From Tubulanus polymorphus (Eukaryota > Nemertea > Palaeonemertea > Tubulaniformes > Tubulanidae), in assembly GCF_964204645.1 (NCBI RefSeq), contig NC_134025.1, positions 10,483,001 through 10,547,000 on the forward strand: a stretch of 64,000 nucleotides of DNA, written 5' to 3'. Within the stretch, counting starts at the first letter, position 1. Every line of letters starts with the position of its first letter. The position numbers and the translations under genes are program-made. Below the pieces are notes generated by a model that was not told the DNA's origin, made no database searches, and saw only the letters and a program-made list of their open reading frames with translations. This document shows positions 69 to 61,976 of this stretch, one piece after another.

Positions 69-2456
69 GCACATTCGACGGGACCTAGATACAGTAGTAA
101 ACTGGGGATTTTCAACTGGGTGGCATTCGGAGGAACTATGTTTTTCCATTTGCTGCATTTGTTGCAGACGCACACTACATACGATCCGTTAGCTCAAGAC
201 GTTGTTATTACTAGTTCACAAGGTCAGTAAAAACATCCATCCACAAAATTCTGATTCCGATATATAAGATAGAGCAGGTTTATCTTTCTGTAAAAAGTGG
301 ATAGATTTTTCAAAATAAGGTTTATATGGCTTCGAGCATCGATTCTTAACGTCAAAGTAGAGTATCCTATACTGATAAAACAAAAGATAAAGTCCGAAAA
401 ATTTCCTATTAAGCTGATGTTTTTATTCATTCGACTTTTCGACTATAGTCAAATAGTCATTCCTGAAGATGAAATTTTTCGGACTTTTCGTTTTATCAGT
501 GAGGGATACTCTACTTTATCGGTACAACACGGAATTAAATAGTGTCTCTTCAATGATTCTTAACGCCATTTGTCAGTAAAAAGCAATGATTTGACGATTC
601 CATTTTATGATATAGGAATGATTTATATTGGAAGGATGGATTGACGTTGTTTTGAAGAATCTTATCCCACCAGATTATATTTACATTTTCAAACCCGTTT
701 TATTCCAGAAATAACGTTTGATACTCTGTATATACAGCGACCAACCCATCATAAAAGTATATCATATTGATGTTTGTGAATTTTCCTATTCTCAATCTCG
801 CAGGTTCTGTGATAATGCTGATCGTGTACGTGGTACTGATAGAATATCGGGATCGCGGACTGCTGTTCGGGTGGCCGACGAAACGCAACACCGACAAAGT
901 CTCATCGACTTTGAGACTGTCGTACGGGCCACTGTACGTCGCTCGAAAATATCACGGATACGCTTTTTCGTGGGCGGCAATCTACACTTTCTGGTATCAC
1001 CCGATGGAGAATACGTGGGGCCATGTTATGGGGTTCGTGCACACATGGATGATCATGTTACAAGGTAAAGCCATAAGTCGCAATGACGCATGATAAAACT
1101 ACTTTTTCATTGTACAACTTGCTAATGGTTGTTGAATACGATCACGTGTTATTTTATTTGGATCCCAAATTAGATTTAAACAATTCGGTGTGTCATGAAA
1201 TTTGTGATTTCATAAAAGACGTCCGTTATGAGCATTGCTTCGAACTTTGTTCGCTGCATAAAATTTGATTACGATATCCAAAAGAGCTTGGACACTATAA
1301 TGTAACGGTAAAATAGACAGGTTTTTGTGTTAATCATTGTAGGCAGCTTGATGTATACGGATTTCCATCTTCATAAGTGGTGGAGATTTATAGTGGAAAC
1401 TTGGGTAACCTTACATGGCGCAGTAGTGGCATATCAAACCGGGGGTCCAATTGTTATGTGGCCAATGTTCCTGTTCGGGTTTCTACTGTTGGTCTGCACA
1501 ACTCAGGTAAGATCAGATCCCAATAACAGAGTCATGGCAGTTAGAATATATTGTCTTCATTTCCAAATAATCAACTTTAAATAAGTTCTTAACTTAAAAT
1601 TTGGATCAACTCATTTACAGGATTTATGAACATTTCAATTCGTTTATGAACAATACAAATCAATCAATCAAATTTACATTAAATATTCAAGAATTTCTTT
1701 ACATTTCTTTACGTGCGGCTTGAGAAAATAAATAGAAATTCAAGATTTGGATAATTTGGAACAAACATAAAGGAATCTGATATGTATAAGCCAATATTGT
1801 GGGATTAATTACATTATTTCCCACCTGCATTAACTACCGTATTTGGATATCATATCGGTATTTTAGTGACGTAATTCATATGTTCATTTTTTCAGATATT
1901 CAGTTTGCGGTTTTGGTGGGATATACCGTCTGGATTCAGGGCCATCCCTATCGTTCTATACGCGGGCGCCGCGTTAGCGGTGTACGGGCTCGTACCGGAC
2001 CATAACGGCAAAACGTTCTCCAGAATTTACGAAATATTTTTCATTCCGGCCATCCTACTTCTTCTTCCTCTTCTGTGTCACGTATTGTTCCTGATGTGCT
2101 TGAAAATCGAATCGCTTTGTCAGCGAGTTTCCGATAACACAGTCGGAGAAAGTTCACCAGTCGTTCAAAAAACGCCTCCGACAGCAGCAGCAACGACGAG
2201 CAAAGTGTCTACCGTTCGCCGAGTCGTTTTCACGCTTGCGGCCTTATTAGTTTTAGTTGCGTTTATCATCGTCGGTTGGCTGATCGAATATCTCGACTCA
2301 CCGGGAGAACTGTTTATTTGGATGAACATATTGTCTGCTTTGTACAGCGTCGGCGTCGTTCTGTTCGCCATGTTTATGAAACAGGCCATTCCGTTGGACA
2401 TCCCCGTCGTCCCGTTGAATGGATTAACGCCAAATACACGAACCACCAGTTCTTGA
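69..2456 (+). CDS. Polytopic membrane protein of unknown family, copy A (5' end outside window)
   Basis: Four exons are visible: 69-222, 804-1064, 1343-1506 and 1896-2456, joined in phases 1, 1, 0; they give 379 residues ending in TGA at 2456. Upstream coding exons must lie before the window. Several hydrophobic segments are visible. The most striking block is in exon 804-1064 and the next exon: a YHPMENTWGH motif, then GFVHTW, then LQGSLMYT, FHLHKWW and VTLHG. These are histidine- and tryptophan-rich positions next to or inside membrane segments. The C-terminal exon has four or five hydrophobic stretches separated by a polar serine/threonine loop. Copy B downstream matches exon for exon with the same phases, so the gene is a tandem duplicate. 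I do not recognise the family and assign no function. Bases 1-68 are probably the 3' end of the preceding intron; they read open for a while but contain no convincing donor. Confidence 0.85.
353..519. repeat. Foldback repeat in intron 1 of copy A
   Basis: The left arm starts AAAGTAGAGTATCCTATACT and includes AAGTCCGAAAAATTTC. Its reverse complement ends the right arm (GAAATTTTTCGGACTT ... GGATACTCTACTTT). The arms flank a loop containing ATAGTCATTCCTGAAGAT. The loop and arm words recur in the foldbacks at 52832-53127 and 60625-60841, so this is a dispersed MITE-like family. Confidence 0.7.
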
Positions 2457-3315
2457 AAATCGCTCCTTCGCTAGCGCAGATATCATTCACGATTTACCTA
2501 AACGCTGACAATCGTTACAAATCTATTCTAGAATGAAATGACTTTCAAATTCGATTAATATAAATGTTTTAAACGAAAAATGTAAACGATAAATATAAAT
2601 GCTTTAGCGAGATTATTTTCTTAAAACGATTTTGAATAAATTATCATATATGCACAAAACGACGCCTCCTTCAATGTTTTCAATCATTCCCAGTAGAGAA
2701 ATGTCACGAAAGCAGAAAAATGTATTGGTAATGTTCGATGAATTAAAAAAAGAATTCATACATATACAATTACTTCAATATTGACACGGCCGATAGAACA
2801 GATTGCGCAACAAGGTCACTGGAGGAAGTTATTCTGAGTTTAATCAGATTTTGAATAAGTGGTTGTCCCCAATTTTCTGATTTGGCAATGACATTCGGTG
2901 TCATTCTCATAGACATTACATACAATCGATACATTACGTGCCTAAGATGAGCGAACCCGAAATAACCAAACGCGTTCGTTTTAACCTTGACGGTAAGTGC
3001 TGTTTTTTCCACCGTAGGATAGAAAACTAGAAAACCAGTCGTATATACAATGTCTCGCAGACGAGAGAGTAGGCCTACAGGTAATGTAAAATGTAAGGTA
3101 ATGTAATGTAAAACGGTGTGCAATATTCTATAGCATAGATATACTGTCAAAATGAAACTTACCCTTCAAACTTTCATTTTTTTACTCGTCAAAACTAAAC
3201 ATCATATTTACCAGTAAATTCTACGTAAAATGCTCGTCAAAACATCATCTGATCTTGGATATACTGTCAAAACAAAAAAAACGACCGACCCCTATCAAAC
3301 CAGACTACTTTTCAG
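2457..3315. other. Intergenic spacer between the two tandem membrane genes
   Basis: AT-rich sequence without a convincing exon on either strand. It must hold the 3' UTR of copy A and the 5' end of copy B. A 126-codon open frame on the minus strand (2770-3150) shows no domain or splice support. The first exon and promoter of copy B could not be fixed here. Confidence 0.5.
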
Positions 3316-6300
3316 CCAACACTAACTACGAAGTTTCTGATTCTCAACACTATGAAAATGAAAATGGCGAGGAAAGGGTAAGTTACGTTCCCTCAACAGC
3401 AGAAATCATGCGTCGTTAACAAGTTCAGATTTTCAATCCATATTTCATAGGATAAACCATGGCTTAAACAGGATACCAAGTGTTGGTTACTGGGAATGTT
3501 ATTCATTACATTATTATGCGTCGTTATTACTTACTTAGGTAACAAGAATATTTAAGTTTGAATAAGTCTCTGAGAGCTCAATTAGTTTTAGAAATCTACG
3601 CGGTCCCCTCGTTTTTAGGCAATGCCAGGGGATGGTACGCCCCGTCTGGTTTCATACACAATATCAGCGTGACGTCACAGGAACGATTTCTTCCCGAACC
3701 TGAAGTAGACGAACCTGGAGTTCATGGCAGGTGAGTCGTAAATATCTCGAGAACGAATTTTTTCTAATTGTTTGAAAAGATTGGTCCACACCTAGATCCA
3801 CGTCCCATGCGATATCAATAATTTGGAGTTTGTTAAGCAGGTCAACTTACTGATAAGATAGCCAAGCCTATCAACATTTGATGAATTTTGACAACATTGC
3901 ACATTATATTCATTCCGAATTGCACCACCTATTTTTGTCAAAACAGTTACACGGAGGTCCATCGGGCCTGCAGGAGATGTTTGAAAGATGTGTTGTTTAG
4001 CTGTTTCTCTTTTGCTTAATTCAATGCTGGTATCATCATAAGCTTCCAGTTAACATTCACATACATATCATCTGCAGGACTGGACAAGGTCGAGTATCCC
4101 GTTGGTATTACTGGAAGTTACCTCCGGATAGGGTCACTGTTTACACGCGACTTTTTGTCTGGGTTTGTTACTTCTCACATCAGATCTTCATATGGGGAGT
4201 GATCTACATGGCGCAAGCGAATAAAGTACGTTTCAAATTCAGTGGGTATCATTCAAATCCATCGCGTTTTACTGCAATTCCCTACAATAATCATGGACGT
4301 ATAAACTAGATAACATCTCTCTGGAACTGGGATTGTTTTACATTTCATTGATAGATGCCTAGATATAGCCACAAGCTGAATATTTACAACTGGCTTGCGT
4401 TCGGAGGGAACATATTCTTCCATTTGTTACATCTATTGCAAACCCACGTCACATACGATGCACTAGCACAAGATGTTGCTATTACAAGTTCACAAGGTAT
4501 AAACTTTATACAGGATTTACACTCGGAAATAATTTCATTGTTAGCTCAGGCATTGAGGGTGGTTGTGGTGGTGACTGTTACCTCCTCCAAAGTGAAATTA
4601 TTTGACCAGAATTTACTGAATTACGTGACATGGACAACAAAAATCCAGGAATGGGGCAATATGACATCGGTCACGCTAGTTTGTCAGTAACATCGTTCCA
4701 ACCATAAGAAAACTTAAGAATCCTAACTTGCTTAAATACTTCTGAATTACCACTCAAATAAACGAAATCGCTGATAATTACAGGTTCGGCGATTATGCTT
4801 TTGGCGTATTGCTCATTGATAGACTATCGGGATCGTGGCATTCTGTTCGGATGGCCATCTCGCCGAAAACACAGGGCCATTTCTTCGCAACAACCGAAAC
4901 TATCCGACGAGCCGATGTATATTGTGAGGAAATACCACAGTTACGCGTTCGCCTGGGCAGCGATTTACACATTTTGGTACCACCCGATGGAAAACACGCT
5001 CGGACACATTTTAGGATTCTTGCACACGTGGATGATCTTACTTCAAGGTAAAATCTTTTACCGTGGCAAAATCATGGCGTTAACACGTAAATCGATAAAT
5101 AATGGGGACAATCCCTATTCTAAGATCAAAATTATAAGTTATTTTTCTACAAAAATATCCGACAAAATATGTAAAATATGACTCCAGCAGGCATTTATTA
5201 CTGATATATGATTTCAAATGTTAAAATCGATAAGGAATAAATGAATATGCTATATTTAAAAAAAGACACGTAAACCGAATCCTTCAAACTAACTCGCCCG
5301 AGCAAAAATCTCTTTTCATCAACCGCAGGGAGCTTGATGTACACGAAATTTCATCTTCACAAGTGGTGGCGATTCGTTCTGGAAGCGTGGGTCACTCTAC
5401 ACGGAGGAGTTGTGGCGTTCCAAGTCGGCGGTAGTGTTGTGATATGGCCGATGTTCTTGACTGGATTTCTAATGATGATTGGCCTAACGCAGGTATATCG
5501 AATTAACACATTTTTGCTTAGAAATCAGGGTCCTTACGGATCAGTCATTCCTTGGATATAAGGAGTTTTCAACGAGTTTCAAAGGAGAAAATTTCAAATT
5601 TCGAGGAAGCATCTTCATCACTTTCATATCCCAATTACAATAGACTCCTCCTTAATTGGTACTTGTTAACTCGGTAAACCATCAATTTGGTGGTTTTGTT
5701 AGCAAATGTTCATCCTTAGCACGACCAAAACTAGGTCCCAGCTGTATTGCTTAAAAGTCCGACGCACACGGAACCGAAAAAAACGGTTACGATGTTTTTC
5801 TTTATGCCGTGTGCGGGGAGGCAAAACAAAAAACGCCGAACTGAAAAACGTTTTTCACGAGCAAAACACATGTTTTCAGTTTCGGCGAAACAAATGTTTT
5901 GCGGTGTGCGTTGGGCTTAAGGCTACTGTGCAACTAAAAACTATAAAAAAATTAATTGCCTATTTTTCAAAATCGAAGGAGTTTTGGTCATTTCTAAGTA
6001 CCTTGATAAGCATTTTCCATTTCAAAGGAATCAAAGAGTCGTAGGGAACCTGGAAATGATAAACACACTTAACTTTTTATTTCATTCATTCTTACTATCA
6101 TATTCACAAGCAATCGGGACGCTTCCGTTTTGCTTGACATTCGTTTTTACAATTTCAGATATTCACGTTCAATTTCTGGAAAAAGATAAGAACGCGATGG
6201 CGGTTCGTACCACTGACTCTCGCGTTGTTGGTAGCATACGGAATATATTCAATACCAGACGATAAGGGACGCACCATCGAACGCATGTACCAAATGATGT

Positions 6301-6620
6301 TCATCCCGATGGCATCATTTTTTACGACAATATTCAGCTACGCATTTTTCTGCGTATGTTTAAAATTAGAGAAAATGCTGGCGAAATTATTCAAACCAGC
6401 AAATCATTCTAGACTATACCGGACCTGTAAACAGGCCTTTTGCGGCCATGCTGCTTTTGCAGTTTTGTTCGGCTTCGTTTCAGCTGGTATCCTCGTAGAA
6501 CAAATAGATATAAAATTAGAAGTATTTGTCCTAATGTATTTTCTAAGTACTTTGTACAGTTTAGGCTTCGTTGTTTTTGCGATGTTTATGAGAAATCACA
6601 TACCTTTAGATATACCTTAG
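3316..6620 (+). CDS. Polytopic membrane protein of unknown family, copy B
   Basis: Eight exons: 3316-3377, 3451-3538, 3619-3730, 4078-4225, 4355-4496, 4784-5047, 5329-5492 and 6159-6620. All have GT-AG junctions and compatible phases, and they give about 480 codons. The first coding exon is missing: the frame through 3316 has no ATG before an upstream stop, and a good acceptor (ACTTTTCAG) precedes 3316. A short polar N-terminus is followed by a membrane segment (LLGMLFITLLCVVITYL), an extracytoplasmic or luminal stretch with an NIS sequon, then eight or nine more hydrophobic segments. The conserved core is YHPMENTLGH, GFLHTW, LQGSLMYT, FHLHKWW and VTLHGG, shared with copy A; the last four exons match A's in order and phase. 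The C-terminus is short (RNHIPLDIP) compared with the longer polar tail of copy A. The His/Glu/Trp pattern within the membrane could bind metal or heme, but that is only a guess. Family unrecognised. Confidence 0.85.
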
Positions 6621-36575: not shown

Positions 36576-39500
36576 ATGCAAGATAGTTTGATTTCTGAAA
36601 GTTCTACAGCAACAAGACTGGATAATACAAGTAAGCTATGTAGTAGGGCCTATTTTATATCAACCAAAATTAGATTATCGTAAATTAAAAATACCATAAC
36701 ATTCGTAAGTTGGTGTCCGCTAGTTTTAAGTTTAACTTAAATTGAGTCCAGCTTAAGTTCATGTCAGAATTGGTCTCTGAATCCGAACTAAGCTATTCTT
36801 TGTCAATATTTATAAATACATTTATTCTTTGGTTTGTTTTAGGCTCATCAAACTTTGCAGATGAAAATCTATGCCCTACTTCGAACCACGGTTTATGCGA
36901 AAAATCTTGTGATGCCTCGCCTAGTAGTAGCCGCATCTTGAAGCTGATTTGCTTGCCGCAAAATCCAAACATGGACCCGAATAAGGACCGATTGTCTTTG
37001 TTCGAGATTCTGAGTAAAAATCCAGTATCAGATAACCCCGCCATCGGCGCACTCGAGAATGAAGACAAGTGCTCGCCGAAAAAGAATAGTTTTGCCGGCG
37101 GAATTGACTTCAGCAATTTGAAGAAGCTCGGATCGGGAAAGCTGGTTCAGAACTTCATAAGAAATGACGGTTCGAAAAGCGCGGATGGCTCAAAAATCAG
37201 CCCGCCCAAGCAATCGCCGTCGAAAAGTCCGAACTTCAAAGCGTTGAAAAACATGTTTAAGAAGGTGAATTTCAACGATCTTAAAAAGAGTAGTAATCCG
37301 AGTTCGAGTTCTACCGGTATAACTGATGCTAGCAAACAAACTAAACACGTTCCGATCCTCCCGAAACCGGCATCGTCGTCGAAAAATGCGTTTTCCGTCG
37401 CGGAGAAAAATGACATCGCGAGACCCTCGCCTGTAAGCTCACCTTCGCAAAGTAAACAAGTACTCAACACGAGAAAATCTATTTTCGAACCGAAAAGTGA
37501 CGGTAAGAACGTCGTTATAGTCAGCTATGCATCGGCTAATTCTTCGTATTTCATCCCGTCGGTGAACAGCGACGCGAATTTGAATCACTCCCGATATTCG
37601 GACCGACCGACGAAAAATCACGCGACTAAGCCCACGATGACAAAGCGCGACGATAATCACAAATATCCCGCTCCGCGAACAATTCTTCCGAAGTCGCATC
37701 ACGAAAGCCTAAAATCGGCGATGGTCGAGCGTGAGACTTCGTACGCCAAAAAAGTTAAGTCCGTTTCGAAGACGGATTCGGAAATAAGTCGTCGATTGAG
37801 TTCAACTGCGCCGCCCATGGCGACTATACGCCACTCGCCTTACGCGAAAAAAGTCATGACAATATCTAGTGCAAATTCGGATAGTAATAGTGCACTAGAT
37901 CTATTTACAATACCTACAGCGACTGTGAAAGAGGCTTTGAAAAAAGGCAAGGCATTATCTAGTGCAAATTCGGATAGTAGTAGCGCACTAGATCTATTTA
38001 CAATACCTACAACAACTGTAAGCCAGGCTTTAAAAAAAGGCAAGGCATTATCTAGTGCAAATTGCGATAAAGATAGTATTTCAAGTTTGTCCAAAGTACC
38101 CGGTGCAACTGTAGCAGGTCGTGCTTCGATTACGAAAATAGGCAAGTCAATATCTAGCTCAAATCCGGACTGTGGCAATAGTTTTTCTATACCGCACTTA
38201 GCGGCTTCAGACCAGACGTCACGTGTGAATAAAGTCAAGACAATAACCAGCGCGCACTCGGGCAGAGAAAGCCATTCGAGTTTATCGCGCCAAGTGGAGA
38301 CCGTGGGTAATAAAAGTCGGTTGCCATCGTCGATAAACAATGATAGAAAATTGGATGTAAAATCTACGAAAGAAGCGGTAAAGGACCGAACGATCGTAGC
38401 TAAGCCCAATGCGATGGACATTAGCAAAATGGTGATATCCGATTCTGCGGGCGTTTGTGCTGATGATCAAAGTGTGCGCAAATCCTCGCGAAAACGCAAA
38501 TTAAATTCTAGTTATACGCGTGGTGACTTCATGCTGGCTAAAGATGGGTTGCGTAATTTGTTCAATGTTTTTGGTGTCGATTCCGATGATAAACCGAGTA
38601 TCGCTGCGCCTGTCTTGCCAGAAAACTGCTTTAAGAAACCGAAATCCCTTAAGAAACATTTGCCTACCCAAAACAGTAGCGATAAATACAAGATTAAATC
38701 GTCGGTCAAATCAGTCGACGACAAGAAAAAATCGAGCGCCAGCGAAAAGGATTCTGTAAGAAAACAGTCGAAATTCATTAAAGTAATTCCCGCGACTAAA
38801 CATACAGCCAAAGTAGGTAGGCCTAGGAAATTCCAGCTAAAAAGCGCTACCGTACCGAATCATAAAAGTAAACCGAAAGTTCTTCAACACCATAAACTTA
38901 AAAGCGATCAAAAACATGCGAAAAAGCCAGAAATGGAAGGGAAGTTGCAAACGAACGCAAATTTGTCGAAGGAAGCGAAAGTCGAACGAAGTACTGCCGG
39001 AATAGATAAGGAACAACTACCCGTTCCGAAACAAGAAAAGTCATCATCGGCTGTCATTCAACAAGACGCAAAACTTCTTCGATCGAATTTGTTGGCAACC
39101 GCGGTGAAGTCGCCGGTGAAAGACCGCAGTAAACTGCTAGCCGATATACAACGAAAGAAGCTCGTTGAGAAGTCGAAAATGATATCGAATCAGCAGTTGA
39201 CGAAACTGCAGAAGGGTAATTTGCGGCCGCGTATGGTTCGTCAGGACGTGCGCATAGTCGCGGCATCGACGTTGAAATTGTCGAAGAAGGCGCGACGATT
39301 TCGCGGTCGGAAAAAGCGCCAACGCCGCAACAGCGATACGAGTTGGGATAGTAGCAGTGATGACAGCGATGGCAGTAGCAGCAACGAGTCGGATAGCGAC
39401 AGCGCGGCAAGTCGAAGCGACGACGAGGACGTGGAAACCGAGCGCGATAACGGTGTTAGCAGCGCTTTTAAAGCGAAAACGAACCGCATCGGGGACGATA

Positions 39501-42500
39501 TCTATAAAATGATCGTGGACGATGGCTCGAAATCCGCCTCGGAAGAAACCGATTCGGAGTCGGCCGTCGAAGTAGATATCGATACGACGAATACGGACGA
39601 TATTTTAAATCCCTTGCGCGTGCCGTTTAAACCGGATGTTTTAGCCGACGCGTTGAATCCGGCTTGCCGGGATCGTTTCGTATTGATCAACGACAACAGC
39701 ACGAACTGGAACGACGTCGCCGCCGAAATGCCGTCCGCCGTCCCCGGAATCGATGAACGCGCGAAGATCGACCAGCCGTCGATCCGTCTGCTCCGATCGG
39801 CGTACGACCGTCGTCGTCCGAAGCTGTTCATCGATAATTTCAACCCGCAGGAGTTGGCCCCGTCGTCGACGTGTACGTGTTACGTCAGTTTTACGGAAAC
39901 GGACGACGGCGCAATCGTCTGCCACGTCGACAACAGTGACGTCGACGGTTGTAACAATAAAGTTAAGAGTAAAACGCGGACGAAAAAGGCGACGGCAGTC
40001 GACAACGAACTGAACCAACTGGATCCTTCCGATCATTTTATCGCCATTCCGATCGTCGACGAATCTGACCTCAGGAATAACACGGATTTTTTTTCGTTGA
40101 ATTTCGATTTCGAAACGAGTTCGTCGTTCGCTTCGCAATTCGATTGCGACGATGCGGAAAATGTTTCCGATCACGGCGTAGCGGCCACGATCGACGACGA
40201 ATCGATTGCATGCGATATTTGTTCACGCGGCGCGAATCAAACTGGCAGACTATGCGAATGCATAAATTCGGCTAAAAAAAAACGCGAAATTTTTTCCGAA
40301 CAGACCGTTAAGGACGAATTCCAAAACGACGCAGCGGAAACATCAAATAACGAGCTGTCTCGGATTCAAACGCGCCCGAAACGGATGAAATCTTGTCGAA
40401 TGAGCTCTGATTATTATTACTACGACGGCGCGTCGTTCGGTTCCCAGAGCTCAGTCTCGTCCGCCGGGTCTTGCGCCACCGATCAAAGTATTATTACGAA
40501 ATCCGAAAAATCTCAGGAAACATCTTTGAAAGCGTTCTCGACGAAGATCGATTATGATAATGATAACGTATTAGTCGCGACGCGCGATTATAATTCGGAA
40601 AGTGTAAATAATTGTTCGCAAAGTTCGTCGTTGACGGATCTGTCCACGTTCGTGAGCAAATTCGTACCGCACAAAGTATATTCGAACGACGACGATGAGT
40701 TGTCGGGTAGTAGCATTCTGTCGAATTCTAGCGACAATGCCAATTCGATCTCGGCTGTGAATGATGAAGAACCGGTCGTGTTGTACGAGCGTATCCGACG
40801 TCGAAACGACGACTTATCGATCGTCGTCTGTCGGGAACGGTCCGGCGCGTGGCACCCGACGCCGATACAGTTCGCCAGCGGTCTGCCGCCTTTCATCGAC
40901 CACACTTACTGCTACCCGCCACCAGCTGCCGCGCTGTCAAGAACTGCCGGTTGTAAACTATCGAGGCGCGGCAAATTCACGTCTGACAATCATAAGAAAT
41001 GTTCATCCGCTGCTGTTGCTGCCACTGCTGCAGGAGGAAAAATGTCACCTGTAAGTATTTAGCTTTTTTAAGCAGGTTGTCTATCTGCGTAAATACCATA
41101 AGAGCAGAATGTGCACTGCTGACTGTATTGCCAGCTTTGGCTTGCACACCTTTGATCATGATTTGAAATGTAATGTATTTTCGTGTTTGGCAAGCATGTT
41201 GTCTTTTTGAATGTGGAATTCCAGTGTTTTGAGTAGAGATCTTTTTCAGCTTTGGACATGGGGAATGTTATTGTTAGAAGCATAGATTTGAGCTATGTTT
41301 GTCCCAAGTTTCCGGATTCAGTTCCTCGGTTTGCTAATGATTCGATTAAAATCTTAAACATCTTGAAATGCAATTGATTGAATGGTCCAATTTAACGGAA
41401 AACCGCGGATCTGTCTGGATAGTGTTTTCTTTCTATTATTATCGAAAGCCTAGTTTTCCGACTAAGGCTGGTAAGGTTAGATGGTGGTGAAGAAATGGCA
41501 AATACCAACAGATGAGAATCCTCGGGGAAAATGATGAAACCTAGTTTTATTTTTCAGATCGTGACGTTGTATAATATTCAATCTTTTCTGACGGTCAGCC
41601 GTCACCTGAAACGGTTCGCCAGCAGGGGTGGTTCCACCATCTATCTACCAAACTGTCTTAAATCGAAGCAGGTATTGTACATTTGTTAAATACATGTCGC
41701 ATGTTTTTATTTCAGAACTCTGGAACATGCCCTCCTGACAGCAGCTTCCGTTGCTGACTTACACCACGTTCTGTCCATTCAGAATCTGACTGGATTTCTA
41801 CGTACATCGAAAGTAAAGACATAATTTACTGGGTTTTTTCTTATATCACGCGTATCGAAATTTCTAGCATTTTGCTGCATGACTTCGTATGTCTTTTGAC
41901 ATTTGTTGTATTTTTCGAATTTCAGGTCCATTTATTGGCAGACTTATGTGGGTTCTTGATCCTGAATGGACCTGAATACATCAAGATATCAAAAACGAAG
42001 TAAGTGTGTTTTCCGGTTTCTAAAATCTGACACCGTTTGTAGATTGGTACCAATATTTCTGCAGAAGGATGGACATATAAAACTACAAATACAGTTTAAC
42101 CCTTTTCATTGCTGACTGATTGATACTTGAAAGTGCTGGAGATAATTTGGAGATTTTTGAAAATTCCACCCCAATGATAACGGGTATACAATGTACCGGT
42201 ACACCGCAGTGAAGTGTACCAAGAGTTAATAATATTTCACTATGTTAGACAAGCGCCACCGTCTTTCAGAGATAGTAACTTATTACTAATAACACTGCAA
42301 TGCAGTGTACGACTGAAGTCCATCACGGATATATTAGACACTGTGATGTAGACGCACTGAAAAGCTTAATCCAGATATGTTTGATTTGTGGTCCAGTTAT
42401 ATTCAACATTGATGTTAATCCAGATTTTTCATGATCATGGATTTATTGGCATGAAAAAATTCTGACCAAAAGCGATTAATCATGAAGTCGATATTTGGCT

Positions 42501-46000: not shown

Positions 46001-48974
46001 AGTTAAGATGATATTATTACCTAACCTGCATATGCAATCTCCTGTGGAAAAGCTGAAGGGCTAGTTGCTCATAAGTTAACCGGGTAAATCAACCTACTTT
46101 TATTGAGCAATTGGGCCTAGGTTTTCAGCGTAACTTCTGTTTTTCTTAATTTCATTTATAGGATTGTTATCATTAATGTAGATGGCTTGTTGATTAATTC
46201 ATTTGATGAATGAATGTCTGGTGTGTCTAATCATGGACGTGTCTAAATACTTGACCAGCACATGTATTAAGTGTGCACCTGTGCTGTGTATGAATGAATT
46301 ATTGAATTTTTGTACTATATTAATTTGAAAAAAAAATAAAAATCAGTTGAAAACTAAAAAGTTTTTTTTATTTGATTCTGGTAATTATGAAGGAATAATG
46401 CTTAAAATGGATCCTAATAATTGTGCAGGGAAATATTGGTGCTTTATTTAGACACTAGATGGCGGTAGCTCACGGCGATGTCCCCGTTTTTAACTGACGT
46501 TTTTATGACTTTCGGTTTACTTAAGGCTAAGGACGCGGACAGTCTCCTGATCGGATTGTACTGACATTTAACGAAAAGTGCTTCATAAAGCCGATACATT
46601 GGACTGCATTTACACTGCAAAATATTAGGGTAAGTCGATTTTCATATCACAGTTTGGCACCAAAAAGGGAAGTTCCGAATTTGGAATTAAATCAAAATCA
46701 AATTAATTAGCCTACTTCGGACTTAGCTTCAGAGGGGCCGGTTCCAATCAATCAAGGTTTGCTTATGGCTATCGGAGATAAAAAAGACGTGTCTATAGAT
46801 TGAACACTCATTTTCGTACCTCGACCTATATGAAACGGCCCCACATCTTTCGTTTAGTTTAGTTAGTTAGGCCTATCTGTCCACTCCTCCGTGTAATCGT
46901 AGACAGTGTAGGCCTAACAGTATTTATTTTTTGGCATGTATTATTTTAATATTATATTAGCTCAAATTCAATTAGGCCTAGAAAAATTCGTTTTCTAACT
47001 CATAAGATACATAGGCCTAGGCCTATTTACAATTATTGATTGTTAAAATTTGAATTAGGCCCCCTGTGTATCGTTAAGCCCCCTACAATTCTTAACCCTT
47101 AAGTGAGTTGAAGGCCCTATCAATTCATCAGGTTCCAAAAGCGAATGTAGGTAAAAATCCCCCGGGTAAAAAGGATATTTACTAGGGGAGGGGGATTTCA
47201 ATTAGGCTACCTGTTACCCCTAGAATCAATGACTTGCCCAAGATTAAGATCAACTGTATTAGCCTATAGGCCCTATTTTAGTATGTCGGCCCTGTTTGCT
47301 TTGATATTCTAAAAATGTATACATGCATAATCTGGTGCTGATTAATTTGGCCTTTTTTCGTAATACATGTAGTTGGTGACTAAAAACACTTCCAATCTTC
47401 CCAACCCTTCTATTGGGCTTGAGTAGCCTATCTTATTACGTGCTTGGTTAGGTCCTAATCAATAAGCCTATAGGGCCTGCAGTCACCCTACCATATACCC
47501 CCACCCCTGCCTACCACCACGTTTTCTCAATGCACATCTCTTCTATACAAATAGCCTACATGGCAAAATATCCCCATATTCCACCATACTATCTAGCCTA
47601 TACCGCCAAAATCTTTCTGCACCGATGTGGGCAATAGGCCTATATCAGGGGTTGACTGTATATACAATGTTTGTGAGCAGTGTTATTAGTTTTTAAAGCC
47701 TGTGAAGATAGTAGCCTTTACAGAACTACCAGGTGCGGATCTAGGGTCTGATTCAGGGAGGGATGCACCTCCAAAATAGTGCATATGATACAATTAATAG
47801 GGCACCCGGAAAGATAGCTCATCGGAAAACATTAACCCTTTTTTGGAAGTACAGCGAACAAGCTTACAAATTTTTTTAGGTAGGCCTATCAGTTTAATAT
47901 TTTTTCATTTTCGCGTAATATTTCAGGGCGACTTGCCACTTAGAAAGGGTGCGCACCCATCGACCCATTGACTACCTGATAAATCATGAATGTTTGATAA
48001 ACCAAATTACCAAACCCAATAATGTTCTGCAGTACTCGTACTCTATACTAGGGCCTAGCTTGCTTTTGCTGGTGTCTATACCAGCAAACCTAATTTTGAT
48101 AGAATTCTTTTTTCCGAATATAGCCCAATTGTGGCTCATAAATTTCTTACACAACTGTGAGGTTGAAATCGGTTATTGCTTGCCAACCATTTAGTTTATG
48201 TGATAGAAATCCCGCCTGATAGCTACTGTAGGATTTTTCTAGCCAAATCATTGTAGTGTCAGTGAAATGATGCAATTAATATTCAATTTTTCATAGCACC
48301 GATACAACGTATTATAAATGCGACGAAAACCTCAGAATTGAAAGCACCTTTCATTTTTGAAAGGCTATACGGTTCAAATCGTGTGTTACCCTCTGACACA
48401 TTAATATTGATATAAGTAATCGCGTACTTCATTGTCATTCGAACTATAAAACTAGTATTAACGATTTGTTTTCGAGTAAGCCCCACGTGCGCTTATTTAT
48501 TATCGGTGATAAATGTCCATTCATCTTGCCGTTATCTTAAGACTTCCTCGTTGAAAATCGCGTAGACATATTGCGCTCTAAGTAGTGGCTCATTACGTTA
48601 ATGGAAATCATCTAAGGATTGTGCACTTAAGGCTCCGATTGAGTAAAAGTTAAAAATACAGCATCTGCCGCGTCATCTGGATGGAATACTGTCCGTCGGA
48701 AGAACGACGACGCGCCGCTGTTGTCATCGCCGAGCCGATAAATCAATATAAACAGCCAGGTGGAATAGCGTAGCTGAACTCGATATAAACTAGTGCGTAG
48801 TTAGTTATCTCTAACACAACGGTCTAGTCAGTCACAAGCGTCGTACGCTCACGATAAAACTCGTTTCAATAACTCACACACACGCGCAGTTGAGTCGACA
48901 CCGGCTAGACATTCAGGGATTAGGGTCTATCGGTGTAATGGTCTAAATCGGTTTCGTCGTCGTTTTTATACGAA
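43004..48974. other. Long intergenic region before the BTBD17-like gene
   Basis: About 6 kb without a supportable gene. Holds the 3' UTR of the upstream gene, a TIR-like element at about 44333-44517 (ACGGTTGAACTTGCGTAAG versus the reverse of CGAGTTTTACTGTAAT), a diverged copy of the 27057 MITE core at 45660-45760, and a stretch (46860-47890) with many TAGGCCTA words. The GC-richer last 400 bases are probably promoter and 5' UTR of the next gene, with ATATAAAC at about 48783. Confidence 0.55.
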
Positions 48975-51900
48975 ATGAGTCATCAAAGTCCCGGTCGTCT
49001 TATTTTTCAGCACGGCGGCGCGATGGCTGCAGCATCGTTTCACGTGAACGTCGCCGACGCCGCGGCCGCTGTATCGGCGGCGGCCTCCTCCGGCAGTCAA
49101 CAACACCGTCAGCAGACGACCGGGGAACGGCGCGACGATGCCGACGAATCGCCGACGACGCCGTCGACAAAAGCCGTGTTTGGAGACGGAATCGACTGCT
49201 ACGGCGACGAACGCCAAATGCTGACCGACCAGGAGAAATTCTACAACAATCAAGTGCTCAGCGACATCGTGTTGAAGGTCGGCACTCAGAGGTTCTACGC
49301 GCACAAGCTGATGCTGATACGCGCTAGCGACGTATTCGAACGCATGTTCAGTTCAGAATGGGCCGATCCCGACAAACCGGTAAGTTTTACGACAATGGGG
49401 TGGTCACTTCAAATTACCTGGAAATCCGGGGAAAAGTCGGGGAATTTTCTTTTCTTTTCTTTAAAAAAGTCGGGTAGGCTAATAGTCAGGGAATTTGGTA
49501 AAAAAGTTTAAGATCAAGGAAAAATCAGGGAAATTCTAATCTTTTAATAATATGCCCAGAGTCGAGCTTGATGGGTTGAGTGATGAAAAAACAGCTCCCA
49601 TTATTCAAGCTATCTTCTTAATAACTGCATTCTGGGTGTGCAGTAGGCTGGCTATCGTTCCCCTTCTAAGTCTCATCTGCTTGTGAATGAAACCATTTTG
49701 AAATTCTAGACTCCATTTGTATGAAAACTGATATTTGAAACACGTCAGTTCCACAGTTGTCAGTTTAGAGTTTAGAATCAGTTCATTTTCAATGGGTTAA
49801 CTCTGAGTCCAAGAACTGCGGAACTGGGTCCAGCCAAATGGAAATTATTGTATGTAAAAAAATTTGTTCAGCTAATTTCGAAAAAAAGACTTCAATGTCA
49901 TTAAGCATTCAATTGGCCCCGCTGTTTGATATACAATATGACTATTAATCCACACTCTCGTGTATATCGACCATGTCCACTCAAATCATACAAATTACGT
50001 ACTTAAATACTAATAATACTGGTTCGCAGAATTTCTCCAGTGGGACAACTCTAATGTGTCTATAACATTTCTTTTGATCGTTAAGTTTTATTGTATTATT
50101 TTTATATATATATATATATATAAAAACATATGTAAATATTTTACATTTTCTATGTAAATATTTTACATTTTCTATAGTGTTGACTAACGAATAGACAACT
50201 ATCATTAGTACATTGATGTATGTACGTTGTTGTGAAGGAAGATTACTTTACTTAGCACACTAATGAATAATTGCATTATTGGCTTTTGCATAAATATGGA
50301 CTGTACGATTTTGTTACATACGTCTAGGGTTATAGTAAGTCCATCCAGGCATGTGTATGTCTCAGCACACTTGACGGCCGCTGTAAGCATATGTTGTTGC
50401 GGTGAAATCTGTTTTTTTGCGCTGACCACTAACAGTCTGTTTTATAGATTGTTTTCGTGTTGAAATAATGATCGCTGTGGCCAGTTTTTCAGAAGTGAAA
50501 AAGTTGCCAAATAACGAAGACTTATAACAAAACTATCAAAATGAATCCAGATTCACTTCGTCAAACTGAATCGTGTGTATTCCAATCCCTAACTTTAATG
50601 TAATAACTTACATTTTATATAACAACATGATAATGAACCTGATCTAATAAACAACAATTGCGCATTTATAAGTTAACCATGCGCTCTAAGGCCCTTTGTT
50701 GATAAAAATGCTGGATTTTGTTTTCTTAGGAGTACCAATGGATGGCCAGGGGCATATCCAAGTGGGGCCCTTATTTTGTTTTGCCAAGATAATAAACTGG
50801 CTTGAGAAAGTTACGCATACATGCAGTTGCAAACTATTGCTAGTAATTTTGTTCTAGAATCACTCGAGATGAGCAAGAATTGATCCATTTTTTCAAAATT
50901 TCTTGGGCGAGGACTGACAGCTCTGTTGGGCGGTGCTGAAAAATTTCCTTTGGCTAACAAGTATTTAACACACGAGTGGCAGCCCTGGAATTCGTTCGCA
51001 GTTTTATACAGAGTTTTATCAGTACAGAAAACGTCTCCTAATTCGGATGAACAGGAACCGGCAAAATTGGTCTGAGATAAATGTAGTCCCCGAGTTAAGG
51101 ATAGGAAAATGTTCATTTGGTAGTCAGAAAAAGATCTCTTTTCGTTCAGAGTTATTCAAAAGTCCGAGCCGGAGCACGACAAGGTTTACTGTATTATTGG
51201 TTAGATGTAAGGCTAGAAAAAAAGTGATACCTTGTTTCTCTTTTCTGCTGAGTTTCTAAGTTGACCCGGCCAGCCGCCCGTGTATTACTTTTTTGAAAAT
51301 CTTGATCAAGTTCACAATAACAACAGACCCGGCAGTTATAGAAATGAACTGATTACGAATTCTATTGCAGTTTACAAAAGTGACTAGCAGAAACAAGGTA
51401 CCGTTTTATTTTTAGCCTTATTATGACCATGGACGTATAAACTTGAGTTTATATACGCCCATGTTATGACTAATAGCTCTGTGGAACTGGCCTCTGCTCA
51501 TATTAGTAAACAAAAAACTGTATACTTTTATCACCTGAGGGTGACCAAAACTGGCTACGTAATGAACACGTAGCTGCATCATTGAGTATACGCGTTCGCC
51601 TTGTTCGGAAACAGTTACCATGACGACAACCTGGTTGTTTTGAAATTTTGCCGAATACGGAAACAAAGATCGAACGCACGAACGCGGGGACCGATTACCG
51701 TCTCGTGTCCAGCAGTATTGCGTCGTTTTTATTCATGATTTCGAGAATGAACAATCGTTCGCTAAATCTTTCCTCTTATAGAGGACGACGTCGTTGGCTG
51801 CGTCGCGTGCGCGCCGGTCTGCGTAGAGGAAAAGTCAATAATAATGACGGATTACCGCCGTCAACGGTGCACCGGTATTCCGGTCACATTTCTCTCCGTT

Positions 51901-54311
51901 GATTTGAAGTAGGCTAGACGCAGATGTAGAGAGACAAAGATAAATGGGCCGGAAGAAAAGACGACATTAACTTTAAGACGATACCGTTGATGACTTGTTT
52001 ACTTCCCTAGTTCTGTCTTGGTACTCATTGATTTAATCATGGACGATGATTTAATGTATCATTTGATTAGTGAAGCCATGATACGTTATCACTTAGTTAT
52101 CACTTTTTTGTTTGCTTAGACATATATATCGTATAGACTCATTGAGCTAGTTCCTGTGGAAGTGTTCAGGAAAAATGAAAATTGATCTTATGTCATGATA
52201 TAACTCCACGTAAAATCTAAATTTAATTTTTCGTAACGATGTCCCCCAAGAAGGCAGTGGATGTCGACAAAAAATTGGAATTTTGAATTTAAGAAGAAAA
52301 TTTCTGTTTTTATCTCGAGATAATAACTCAACGAATAAATGGGAAAACTTTTAATGAAGTGAGAATGAAATCAAATGTTCTTAGATGATAACTCGACTGA
52401 AATAAGGAAAACTGTTAATTAATCGTAAATGATGTTGAGATATATCTCGACTTAAAATCCAATTTTTCTTTGTTCCTAAATGATGTCCCCAGGACGCTTC
52501 CATAAGTTCCACTGGCCAGAATTTAGATCCCGCTAAGAATAAGCCAGTCACAAATGAAAACTGTTCCAGGTCAAATTGCATATGAGTTTGGAGGTGTCTA
52601 GTTGCCTGCAGTATACCCGGTAGTTCAGCCCTGATTTGAATCGATTTTGCCCACTGGTACTGAAACTAGTTCTGATGCAAAATTTCCTCCTAAATGTTTC
52701 CTGACAAGTATCAAATTCATCCCAAAATTTCAAACCTGAGTTCCAGTATGAAACCTGAGTTCCAATGGCTCTATCAGGGATCCGGGGGCTAGATGTGAGA
52801 ATATTTTCAGGGCAGATGAATAAAAAAGGTAACGAGAATGATAATGAATGACAAAGTCTGACAATAATTTCTAGAGCCAGTAGTTTATTCAACGATTCCA
52901 GAACAAAGAGACTTATTTAGGTAATCAAAATTAGTCTCTTAATGTCTTGAATTAGTCTCTTGATTTAGTCTATTTGTTCTGGATTAGATATAATATATTT
53001 CATAATTTCTGTTGTAGCTCAGACTATTAGAATATACCGGTAGTCAAAACGTCGAATAAACTACTGGTTCTAGAAATTGTTTTCGGACTTTGTCTTTCAT
53101 TATCATTGTGGCATTCTCGTTATTTTAACGTCATAACATCACAGATTTAGTGTTTTATCAATGTTAAGCACCACATTCATGACTTCTTATAACGAAATTT
53201 GTCATTTCGATCTCTACTTTTTCAGGAGATTGAATTAGTCGAAGAAGCCATGTGCGTCGAGGTGTTCCCGCGATTTCTCAAGTTTCTCTACAGCTGCCAC
53301 GTCTTGTTGAACGTCGACACGGCTCTGCCGCTTCTCGTGCTCGCCGACAAATACAACGTCATCGACCTACAAAACGTCTGCATCAACTTCTCGCACCAGC
53401 ATATCATCCCGAAAATCCAGCTGAAAGACGTTTTCCACGTGTGGTTCCAGTACGCGACGAAGTGCTACCACCACAAGCTGATCTCGGCGTCGGTGGCGGC
53501 GCTGTCCGACACGATGCTCTCAGCCGAGTGGGAGCAGGAGTGGACGAATCTCGAACAGGAACAGTTGATGGAGTTCGTGCGCAGTTCGAACTTGATCATC
53601 AAAGACGAATACGAACTGTGGGAAGGCGTGTTGAAGTGGCTGCAGGCGAGCGCGCATCCCGACCGCATGGTGAAAATGGAGACGCATTTACGCGCGATCC
53701 TGCCGCACGTTCGCTTTCCGATGATGACCGCTGACCACCTGTCGGACATTCAGAAAAGTCGCCTGTACGAACTCTACCCGCTCGAGTTCCAGCCGTACAT
53801 AATGCTCGCGTATAAATTCCATGCGCTCTCGTTGACGAGTCGCGCCACCGCGAAGGAGTTCACCACGGAGGCTTTTTTATTGCGAAACTACACGAACTTG
53901 CGCTGGGACAAACGCCTGGTCATCACCGACTATCCGACGAGTCAGAAATCGTCGGAGGTGACGCTGCGATTCACGACGCGGTCGAGTTCACTGCCGACGA
54001 CGACCTGGGAGTGGGAGCTGCGCGTCAATCTGAAATTCAACAAGCTGACCTCGTCGGAGGACTTCATGCGTTTGAAGAGCACAAACTTGATACTCGACCA
54101 GGCGCGGCCGATCGAATTTCTGCTGTCAGTCGTCGACAACGAACACGTCATCACAACGGTGACCGGAAAGAAAAACTTCTGCAAAAATAAGTACATGGTC
54201 GATACAGAAATCGACAAGAAACTGCCCGTTCAGGAACTAACGTCTCCCGATTCGGAATATCTCGTCAATGGCTCGCTGATTCTCCAAATAACCCTTAAAC
54301 CTGTTAGTTAG
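48975..54311 (+). CDS. BTBD17: BTB/POZ-BACK protein, BTBD17/Tango10-like
   Basis: Two exons, 48975-49379 and 53226-54311, joined in phase 0 across a 3.85-kb intron; 496 residues. The first 75 or so residues are low-complexity (Ala, Ser, Gln, His). The BTB fold begins at EKFYNNQVLSDIVLKVG, continues YAHKLMLIRASDVFERMFSS to the exon end, and is completed in exon 2 (VFPRFLKFLYSCHVLLN, LPLLVLADKYNVIDLQNVC). A BACK-type helical region follows (LIIKDEYELWEGVLKWLQAS, ILPHVRFPMM) and then a C-terminal beta-rich domain (about 335-496: TWEWELRVNLKF, RPIEFLLSVVDNEHV). This layout is that of BTBD17 and insect Tango10. Tango10 is reported as a Cullin-3 adaptor in circadian output; for this protein an E3-adaptor role is inference. 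The start ATG is the first in a clear GC-rich coding stretch. Confidence 0.85.
49746..49833. mobile_element. Short palindromic MITE (CAGTTCCACAGTT family), second copy
   Basis: Left CAGTTCCACAGTTGTCAGTT, right AACTGCGGAACTGGGTCCAG; inner TTCATTTTCAATGGGTTAAC matches the 16652 copy in inverse order. It lies in the BTBD17 intron. Confidence 0.75.
50100..50123. repeat. (TA)n microsatellite
   Basis: About eleven TA units in the BTBD17 intron, followed by a direct repeat of ATGTAAATATTTTACATTTTCTA-type words around 50130-50175. Confidence 0.85.
51211..51417. mobile_element. MITE, GGCTAAAA-TGATACC family, copy 3
   Basis: Left GGCTAGAAAAAAAGTGATAC then CTTGTTTCTC; right AGAAACAAGGTACCG then TTTTATTTTTAGCC. 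Inner words TTGACCCGGCC and ATCTTGATCAAG match copy 1 in inverse orientation. It lies in the BTBD17 intron. Confidence 0.8.
52832..53127. mobile_element. Large foldback element just upstream of BTBD17 exon 2
   Basis: The left arm (AACGAGAATGATAATGAATG, GACAAAGTC, TTTCTAGAGCCAGTAGTTTA) is the near reverse complement of the right arm (GTCGAATAAACTACTGGTTC, GGACTTTGTC, GGCATTCTCGTT). The loop carries its own smaller foldback of TAGTCTCTTAAT-type words. It ends only 98 bases before the exon 2 acceptor. Confidence 0.8.
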
Positions 54312-60456: not shown

Positions 60457-61976
60457 ATGAGTAAATTTGCGGTGACTGTTCTGATGATTTTATGGACCGG
60501 GCAATGTTACAATTATGGTAGGTAGATATTCTTATATTTGAAACCATATACCAAAGTTTGAAACTCGATGGAAAAATTTTCTTGTTAGAATTTCTTCTTA
60601 GATTTTACATCTCCATTTCCTGATCTATAGAGAATCCCACAATGATAACAAAAAATATTAAGTCCGAAAATGCTTCCTTGAGCTAGTAGTTTATTCGACA
60701 TTTTGACTATATTCGTAGTCATCTTCAGGAATACAGGAGTATTCCTGAAGATAACTATTAGTCGAAACAGCGAATAAACTACTAGCTCCAGGAAACACTT
60801 TTGGAGTTCATATTTTTCGTTGTGATTGGGATACTCTATGGATTATCAACATAACAAGGATATAGTGTCTTATCAATGGTTATCTCCAGGTCATGTAATA
60901 GGATTGATGTTCAAAAATGATTATTACTGAAAATTAGAAGCGCTCCATACTTGAAATCAATGGCTATTTTTACAATTTCAGGAATTATTGAAGATAAACC
61001 TGAAAATCTGAAGCAAAAATTTGCGACATTCAAATACGGTTTACCTGATGTTACGTTTCGTCGCCGGGCGAAACGCCAGATTTTCAAAGCGGCGTACTTA
61101 AGTTCAACGCTACCTTCGAATTACAAATCAGTTTGGGATGAAATTAAGGAGATAGAGCAGAACTATCTAAACGGTCGTTGGAGACGTCCCACACCAAAAC
61201 CTGATAAATGGGCCCATGTTTTTAACAACCCGGTAAAGAAAGCCGATTTGGTAAAGTTTGAAGACATACCTCTATACGACGCATCAAGTAAAGACTTCGT
61301 AATGGTGATAATCGGTGTGGTGATTCTTGTCGGAGTGCCACTCTCGGTGTTGGCCTGCTGCGCGTTGAAGGCCATGGGAGTTTGCAAAAACTACGAATGC
61401 TGCAAGCCGGCACCGAGACCGGTATTTCCGCAGCTGAATGAGAATCAAAAACGATTCATTCGTCGCACCTCGGCTATTCATCCGATCCGGCTGGAAGCGC
61501 CGTATTCGGAATTCATGAATTATACTCTCAGACAAAATGAGGAAACGATGTTTTACGGCGGTATGACGAATATCAGTTTGATCAGCCGCGCAACGCCTGG
61601 ATGGATGAACATCAAGGGGGAGCAGTACGGTAGCGCGATAAAACTACAGGACATGATCGCCGAACGGGAAAAAAGAATGCGACAAATCAAAATGAAGGCG
61701 GCCGAAGATACCGTGCGGGAAGACGGTCTCGATACTGCAACTGATTATGTAAATGTTGATCTTGACGTGCGCAGTGAGTCCGAAAATATGCCGAAACCTC
61801 CGACAAATTTCGACGATAAGAATGATGATTCCTGTGCGAAGATCCATCGATCTGTCTCAAGCAGCGCAAGTACTTTGCTAGATTCAGAGGATGATGAAAT
61901 CAAACAAGTTCAAGAAGAACGCCGTTGTTATGCTGAAATAGTTATTCCAAAGGCAATAGATGAGACAAGTGTTTAA
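60457..61976 (+). CDS. Single-pass membrane protein with signal peptide and furin-type site, unknown family
   Basis: Two exons, 60457-60517 and 60982-61976, joined in phase 1; 351 residues. Exon 1 encodes a signal peptide (MSKFAVTVLMILWTGQC). A short acidic/basic propeptide-like stretch ends in FRRRAKR at about 52, a consensus furin cleavage site, followed by QIF. The mature ectodomain would be only about 70 residues, Trp/Tyr/Pro-containing, without a disulfide pattern. One membrane helix (about 126-149, MVIIGVVILVGVPLSVLACC) is followed by a juxtamembrane cysteine group (CKNYECC). The cytoplasmic tail (about 200 residues) has Tyr-based words (YSEFMNY, MFYGGM), a basic helix (AEREKRMRQIKMKA) and an acidic/Ser end. 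The predicted form is a type I protein. I do not recognise a family. Without exon 1 a weak ATG at 60957 would lack the signal peptide, so the two-exon model is preferred. Confidence 0.8.
60625..60841. mobile_element. Foldback MITE (AGTAGTTTATTCGAC family) in intron of the membrane-protein gene
   Basis: Left CTATAGAGAATCCCACAATG, AAGTCCGAAAATGC, CTAGTAGTTTATTCGACATT; right GTCGAAACAGCGAATAAACT, ACTAGCTCC, GGGATACTCTATG. The centre is TCTTCAGGAATACAGGAGTA plus its complement. It is related to 353-519 and 52832-53127. Confidence 0.85.

Follow-up and report, generated by a model that had tools for sequence, protein, structure and literature searches.

A tandem gene pair in Tubulanus polymorphus encodes polytopic membrane proteins of an undescribed family whose other known members are bacterial

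Structure and divergence of the gene pair

The window analysed here, a 64,000-nucleotide stretch of the Tubulanus polymorphus genome, carries at its left end two adjacent spliced genes, copies A and B, arranged in tandem on the forward strand (69-6620). Copy B was assembled by eye and with a script as nine exons (2947-6620) with AG/GT borders, which read in frame without a stop and encode 495 amino acids. The start codon lies in exon 1 (2947..2992), followed by exon 2 (3316..3377) and by exon 3 (3451..3538), which encodes the first transmembrane helix. Exon 4 (3619..3730) encodes an exoplasmic loop with an N-glycosylation sequon, NIS at N80, that the bacterial members do not have. Exon 5 (4078..4225; RWYYWKLPPDRVT) contributes H137 in helix 2, exon 6 (4355..4496; LHLLQTH..YD) the invariant H178, exon 7 (4784..5047; RKYHSY...YTFWYHPMENTLGH) the invariant H251 and H266 with the acid E269, and exon 8 (5329..5492; FHLHKWW...LEAWVTLHG) the invariant H296, E306 and H312. 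The last exon (6159..6620) encodes the C-terminal helices, including a eukaryote-specific extension.

Eight exons were found for copy A. The window edge cuts this gene, and its first four exons lie up to ~1 kb upstream (C1:10481952-10482917, + strand); a further 5' coding exon is possible. Within the window, exon 5 (69..222) is an open frame with AG/GT borders and a phase that matches copy B, and it is followed by exon 6 (804..1064; RKYHGY...YTFWYHPMENTWGH), exon 7 (1343..1506; HLHKWWRFIVETWVTLHG) and the last exon (1896..2456), which encodes the C-terminal helices and tail. The two genes that the first-pass annotation had proposed in this region are thus real, although copy A is incomplete at the window edge. 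Its observation that they share intron positions and phases also holds, as the last seven introns lie at aligned positions with phases 0,1,2,0,1,1,0 in both copies. A search of the whole genome (268 Mb, 77 contigs) returned exactly two copies, A and B. Within an intron of copy A (347-524) we noted nested inverted repeats with arms of 39 and 32 nt, ~81% complementary, resembling a small non-autonomous transposable element; copy B has a short inverted repeat in its last intron (5763-5815; 22 nt arms, 77%), perhaps another small mobile element.

The two proteins are 57-58% identical overall, with 71% identity in the core and 81% in the segment that spans YHxY to LHG. Amino acid identity falls to 0.56 in the N-terminal part and 0.39 in the C-terminal part. 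Consistent with the earlier view that the core had been kept while the ends diverged, dN between the copies was 0.11 for the motif block and 0.195 for the core, versus 0.44 for the N-terminal and 0.58 for the C-terminal part. A Ka/Ks comparison over core and tails yielded this dN contrast; synonymous sites (dS) were saturated. Because dN is lowest in the core and motif block and dS is saturated, the duplication is old and selection has held both copies, the core most strictly.

An unannotated bacterial family with an invariant histidine signature

Single-sequence hmmscan searches with either copy or with 15 bacterial relatives found no match in Pfam (2025 models) or NCBIfam 2026, where no family reached the curated cut-offs, and neither did the PDB 2026 sequences contain one; PHROGs named no family for the pair or its relatives. 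A match of one member to FTR1 at 0.008 was dismissed as noise. Profile comparison with hhalign against four hand-made candidate profiles gave probabilities of 0.5-1.2% for Ferric_reduct (PF01794) and 0.1-1.9% for Ni_hydr_CYTB / bacterial b561 (PF01292), versus 100% for a split-half control. Probabilities of 0.1% were obtained for the Brp/Blh beta-carotene dioxygenase (BCD; PF15461) and for the lipid desaturase CarF/TMEM189 (Lipid_desat; PF10520), both with small reference alignments (n=4 and n=3, respectively) and with one of the underlying bacterial alignments (bac2) including a sequence, L114, in the wrong frame; the Ferric_reduct and Ni_hydr_CYTB comparisons agreed with and without L114. 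Foldseek searches of the PDB and of viral models (BFVD) with the AlphaFold models described below gave no match with E <= 0.001. The first-pass annotation had called the family unrecognised, and neither Pfam, NCBIfam, PHROGs, PDB sequences, Foldseek nor hhalign against the four families gave it a name.

Copies A and B are, however, not an isolated eukaryotic oddity: the candidate put forward as undescribed belongs to a widespread, unannotated bacterial family, represented here by two tandem duplicates. GTDB relatives of the core, with 42-60% identity, were found in Anaerolineae, Ktedonobacteria, Streptosporangium, Umezawaea, several Pseudomonadota metagenome bins and Spirochaetales. The bacterial proteins are ~340 amino acids long and align to A and B across the full core; the closest members are 35-42% identical to the animal copies, and the homology spans the whole ~330-residue membrane core. 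Judged by profile alignment of animal against bacterial sequences (hhalign probability 100%, E 4e-72, 329 columns), this homology is far above chance. The family gene occurred in 28/301 genomes of Chloroflexota, 4/198 of Spirochaetota, 1/296 of Actinomycetota and 1/398 of Pseudomonadota; as these counts include the seed genome, the samples of the last two phyla held nothing besides the seed.

A distinct, deeper Chloroflexota subfamily (L058-L067) comprises proteins of 430-510 amino acids with extra N-terminal helices, in which HPIDPKPLH or HPMEPLPAH replaces HPMENTxGH. In another Chloroflexota genome (L068, G157:C1:482506-492988), stops and frame changes interrupt the family gene, which appears to be a pseudogene.

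An alignment of 43 sequences extends the invariant His, Glu and Trp residues of the animal pair, as claimed from the two copies, to the bacteria. In the numbering of the bacterial member L043 (copy B in brackets), H97 (H178), H158 (H251), H173 (H266), H203 (H296), H219 (H312) and E213 (E306) are invariant in all 43, as are Y40, W42, W56, Y59, Q100, Y105, S120, R136-G137, W164, Y168, F170-W171, P174 and W208, while H62 (H137) is kept in 42/43. Written as motifs, the family shows YxW, LHxxQ, RG, H-x5-W...YxFWxHPx[ED], HxxxxW, E and H. The full HPMENTxGH string given by the first-pass annotation is not found in distant relatives; because position 176 is E in 36 sequences and D in 7, the part kept family-wide is HPx[E/D].

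In a phylogenetic tree with copies A and B as the eukaryote members, the animal pair grouped as a single clade with full support, set on a long stem of 1.8 changes per site. It joined among Chloroflexota, nearest to Dictyobacter (Ktedonobacteria), with a support of only 46/80. The many introns of the genes and their location on a 32-Mb contig make bacterial contamination very unlikely as the source of the pair; transfer from bacteria to the animal lineage is plausible. A viral origin was rejected, as scans of viral contigs held no relative and the BFVD fold search was empty. Carriage on plasmids was likewise set aside: the sole match was on a Nonomuraea replicon that, at 11.9 Mb, has the size of a chromosome.

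Predicted topology and gene neighbourhood

AlphaFold models of two bacterial members, from Streptosporangium (pLDDT 84, pTM 0.82) and Spirochaetales (pLDDT 88, pTM 0.87), each showed approximately ten helices. Lys and Arg residues numbered 18-34 on one set of loops versus 2-11 on the other (20 versus 6 in L043, 34 versus 11 in copy B). Because positive charge is so strongly biased to one loop set, the N-terminus would lie inside, and we predict a ten-helix core with both termini in the cytoplasm. In the animal copies, helices 1 and 2 are joined by a long exoplasmic loop with a sequon in both (N60 in A, N80 in B), which falls on the predicted exoplasmic side in agreement with the charge-based topology, and additional C-terminal helices are predicted beyond the bacterial core.

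With residue depths estimated from helix ends, the predicted positions are near the cytoplasmic face for H158 and H203 (L043 numbering), within the inner half for E213, within the outer half for H97, H173, acid 176 and H219, and mid-membrane for H62. Helices 5 and 7 run the same way, each with two His, 15 and 16 residues apart and one per membrane side; in copy B, H266 and H296 are predicted just outside the helices. Helix-face analysis was mixed, being significant for helices 6 and 7, ~0.03 for helix 4 and 0.05 for helix 2, and not significant for helices 3, 5 and 8. Taken by helix order, predicted side and helix face, the His residues would be divided between the two sides of the membrane instead of forming a single cluster.

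In the bacterial genomes, a short-chain dehydrogenase (SDR) gene lies directly downstream on the same strand in 8/28 GTDB loci (L018, L027, L028, L029, L038-L041), which span Ktedonobacteria and Anaerolineales. The SDR is of a generic type, and most lineages are without it. Nine of the 28 loci (L016, L020, L022, L025, L026, L027, L039-L041) have a gene of the MerR plus B12-binding cluster within 5 kb; all nine are Chloroflexota, from two separate tree clades and with two arrangements. Further neighbours in this phylum, with Pfam domains scanned in one representative of each cluster, were a photolyase, a DUF1295 reductase-like protein, an epimerase, SRPBCC, DUF3159 and DegV. As far as scanned, the loci of other phyla had no MerR-B12/SDR context, and no recurring redox partner adjoined the gene outside Chloroflexota.

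The LitR/CarH light sensors are MerR-B12 regulators of this build. However, B12 use and light sensing in the present loci are not certain, because the B12 motif DxHxxG was not found in the four neighbouring regulators checked. The LitR/CarH cluster of Pseudomonas mendocina includes the photolyase gene phrB and an SDR (PMC9758184). The bacterial family gene likewise has a MerR-B12 regulator, a photolyase and an SDR nearby, whereas the membrane protein is not among the genes named in the passages on the P. mendocina cluster (PMC9758184). The presence of MerR-B12 regulators and a photolyase beside the gene suggests that in Chloroflexota it has a role in light or photo-oxidative stress.

Candidate functions and other genes in the window

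Three functional readings were ranked. We tentatively place first a transmembrane redox protein with bis-histidine sites near each membrane face, holding heme or another metal; a non-heme membrane enzyme comes second and is nearly as likely, and a transporter or receptor third. The redox protein is placed first because same-direction helices with two His ~15 apart, one near each face, fit a bis-heme conduit. In cytochrome b and the NOX/ferric-reductase families there are two such helices, with His spacings of 13-15. Here, the invariant His would act as cofactor ligands, and electrons would cross the membrane through the bis-histidine sites, probably by way of b-type heme and possibly of another metal. 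In copy B, H251 (start of helix 5) and H296 (immediately ahead of helix 7) would form a first site near the cytoplasmic face, close to E306. A second site in the exoplasmic half would comprise H178 (helix 3), H266 (end of helix 5) and H312 (helix 7), accompanied by the HPx[E/D] acid and a Tyr-Asp pair. The partners of the protein in Chloroflexota would probably be the cytosolic SDR and a light-responsive regulon.

The invariance of His and Glu in 43 sequences combined with confident ten-helix models, the presence in helices 5 and 7 of His near both faces, and a gene context of SDR, MerR-B12, photolyase and DUF1295 reductase-like protein all argue for this redox reading. Fold comparison with VIA also bears on it: for model 1, 4o6y was the top row (Z 6.4, 137 residues, 3.7 A), and a hydrogenase cytochrome b scored 5.2; model 2 retrieved Dcytb (5.8), b561 (5.7 and 5.4), STEAP1 (5.3), cytochrome b6 (4.8) and DUOX1 (4.5). 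This recurrence of membrane cytochromes with one or two hemes among the better rows is only a hint, at the level of modelled fold, of a heme protein. However, the matches to b561, Dcytb and STEAP (Z 5.3-6.4 across 137-148 residues, 3.7-4.4 A) stay below 8, a range that the tool calls common, and on model 2 BK channels score higher (Z 6.9), with voltage-sensor and receptor helices scoring alike. Also against the redox protein are the empty Foldseek result, the hhalign probabilities below 2% for Ni_hydr_CYTB and Ferric_reduct, the position of H266 and H296 of copy B just outside the helices, the only partly positive helix-face test and the lack of a recurring redox partner beside the gene outside Chloroflexota. 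By helix direction, moreover, the heme helices of b561 need not match the His-bearing helices. Like b561, Dcytb, STEAP and NOX proteins, the family is polytopic with conserved His on several helices and at both faces, and its structural similarity to them is weak (Z 4.5-6.4). It differs in having ten helices instead of six or fewer, in its motifs YxW, HPx[E/D] and RG, in its heme being only putative and in matching neither the Ferric_reduct nor the Ni_hydr_CYTB profile.

The second reading, doubtful as well, is a membrane enzyme dependent on a non-heme metal: an oxygenase, desaturase, isomerase or hydrolase. It would act in the exoplasmic half of the bilayer, with a lipid or isoprenoid as its substrate and with the neighbouring SDR handling the product or substrate. 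Multi-His membrane enzymes are common, and the SDR directly downstream in two bacterial groups, the HPx[E/D] acid beside a His and a Tyr-Asp pair on the same side, and the lipid-type neighbours SRPBCC, DUF1295 and DegV would suit such an enzyme. Yet the family has no HxxxH or HxxHH boxes, its invariant His lie on both sides and exceed the needs of one metal site, and the hhalign probabilities for BCD and Lipid_desat are ~0.1%; the generic nature of the SDR and its absence from most lineages also weaken the case. With Brp/Blh beta-carotene dioxygenase the family shares a membrane-embedded build and several conserved His, but its motifs are different. CarF/TMEM189 is a membrane lipid desaturase tied to the light response of Myxococcus and also present in animals, features that the family described here would share; the latter is, however, without the HxxHH-type boxes of the CarF/TMEM189 members compared.

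A transporter, channel or receptor, in which the conserved His, Glu and Trp would be structural or proton-coupled instead of binding a cofactor, is clearly unlikely. The ten or more helices and the fold rows with BK channel, bestrophin and LeuT-like chains are consistent with it, whereas no known transporter family matches and the number of fully invariant aromatic and His residues is unusually high. The slimmest chance is given to a diverged member of a known family missed by the libraries used, such as one held in CDD, PANTHER or recent papers: profile comparison covered four hand-made families and the rest was single-sequence hmmscan, but several divergent members were negative in Pfam, NCBIfam, PDB and Foldseek, and the motif strings occurred in no relevant paper of the literature searched.

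Returning to the redox protein, a fuller scenario would be that an undescribed heme or metal family, part of the light or photo-oxidative stress response of Chloroflexota, passed from bacteria into an animal lineage, where the gene came to carry introns, a glycosylated loop and additional helices and underwent duplication; as a whole we regard this as rather unlikely. Novelty would lie at the level of the protein family only, and its chemistry may well prove familiar. If true, the proposal would add a protein family absent from the main libraries, in which six or more near-absolute His/Glu positions could be tested directly in easily grown bacteria. It would also offer a candidate for a bacterial membrane redox protein that functions in an animal, and connect an uncharacterised gene with the light-response clusters of Chloroflexota.

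Elsewhere in the window, no link of other genes to the A/B pair was seen. A BTBD17-like gene with BTB, BACK and BTBD17-type TRAF domains occupies 48939-49511 and 53193-54311; like the intron-rich genes, it suits an animal genome. An open frame of 1438 amino acids at 36746-41062 is rich in Ser and Lys. A membrane protein exon at 60921-61976 had no Pfam or PDB match; by eye, it recalls the segment that follows the peroxidase domain of dual oxidase.
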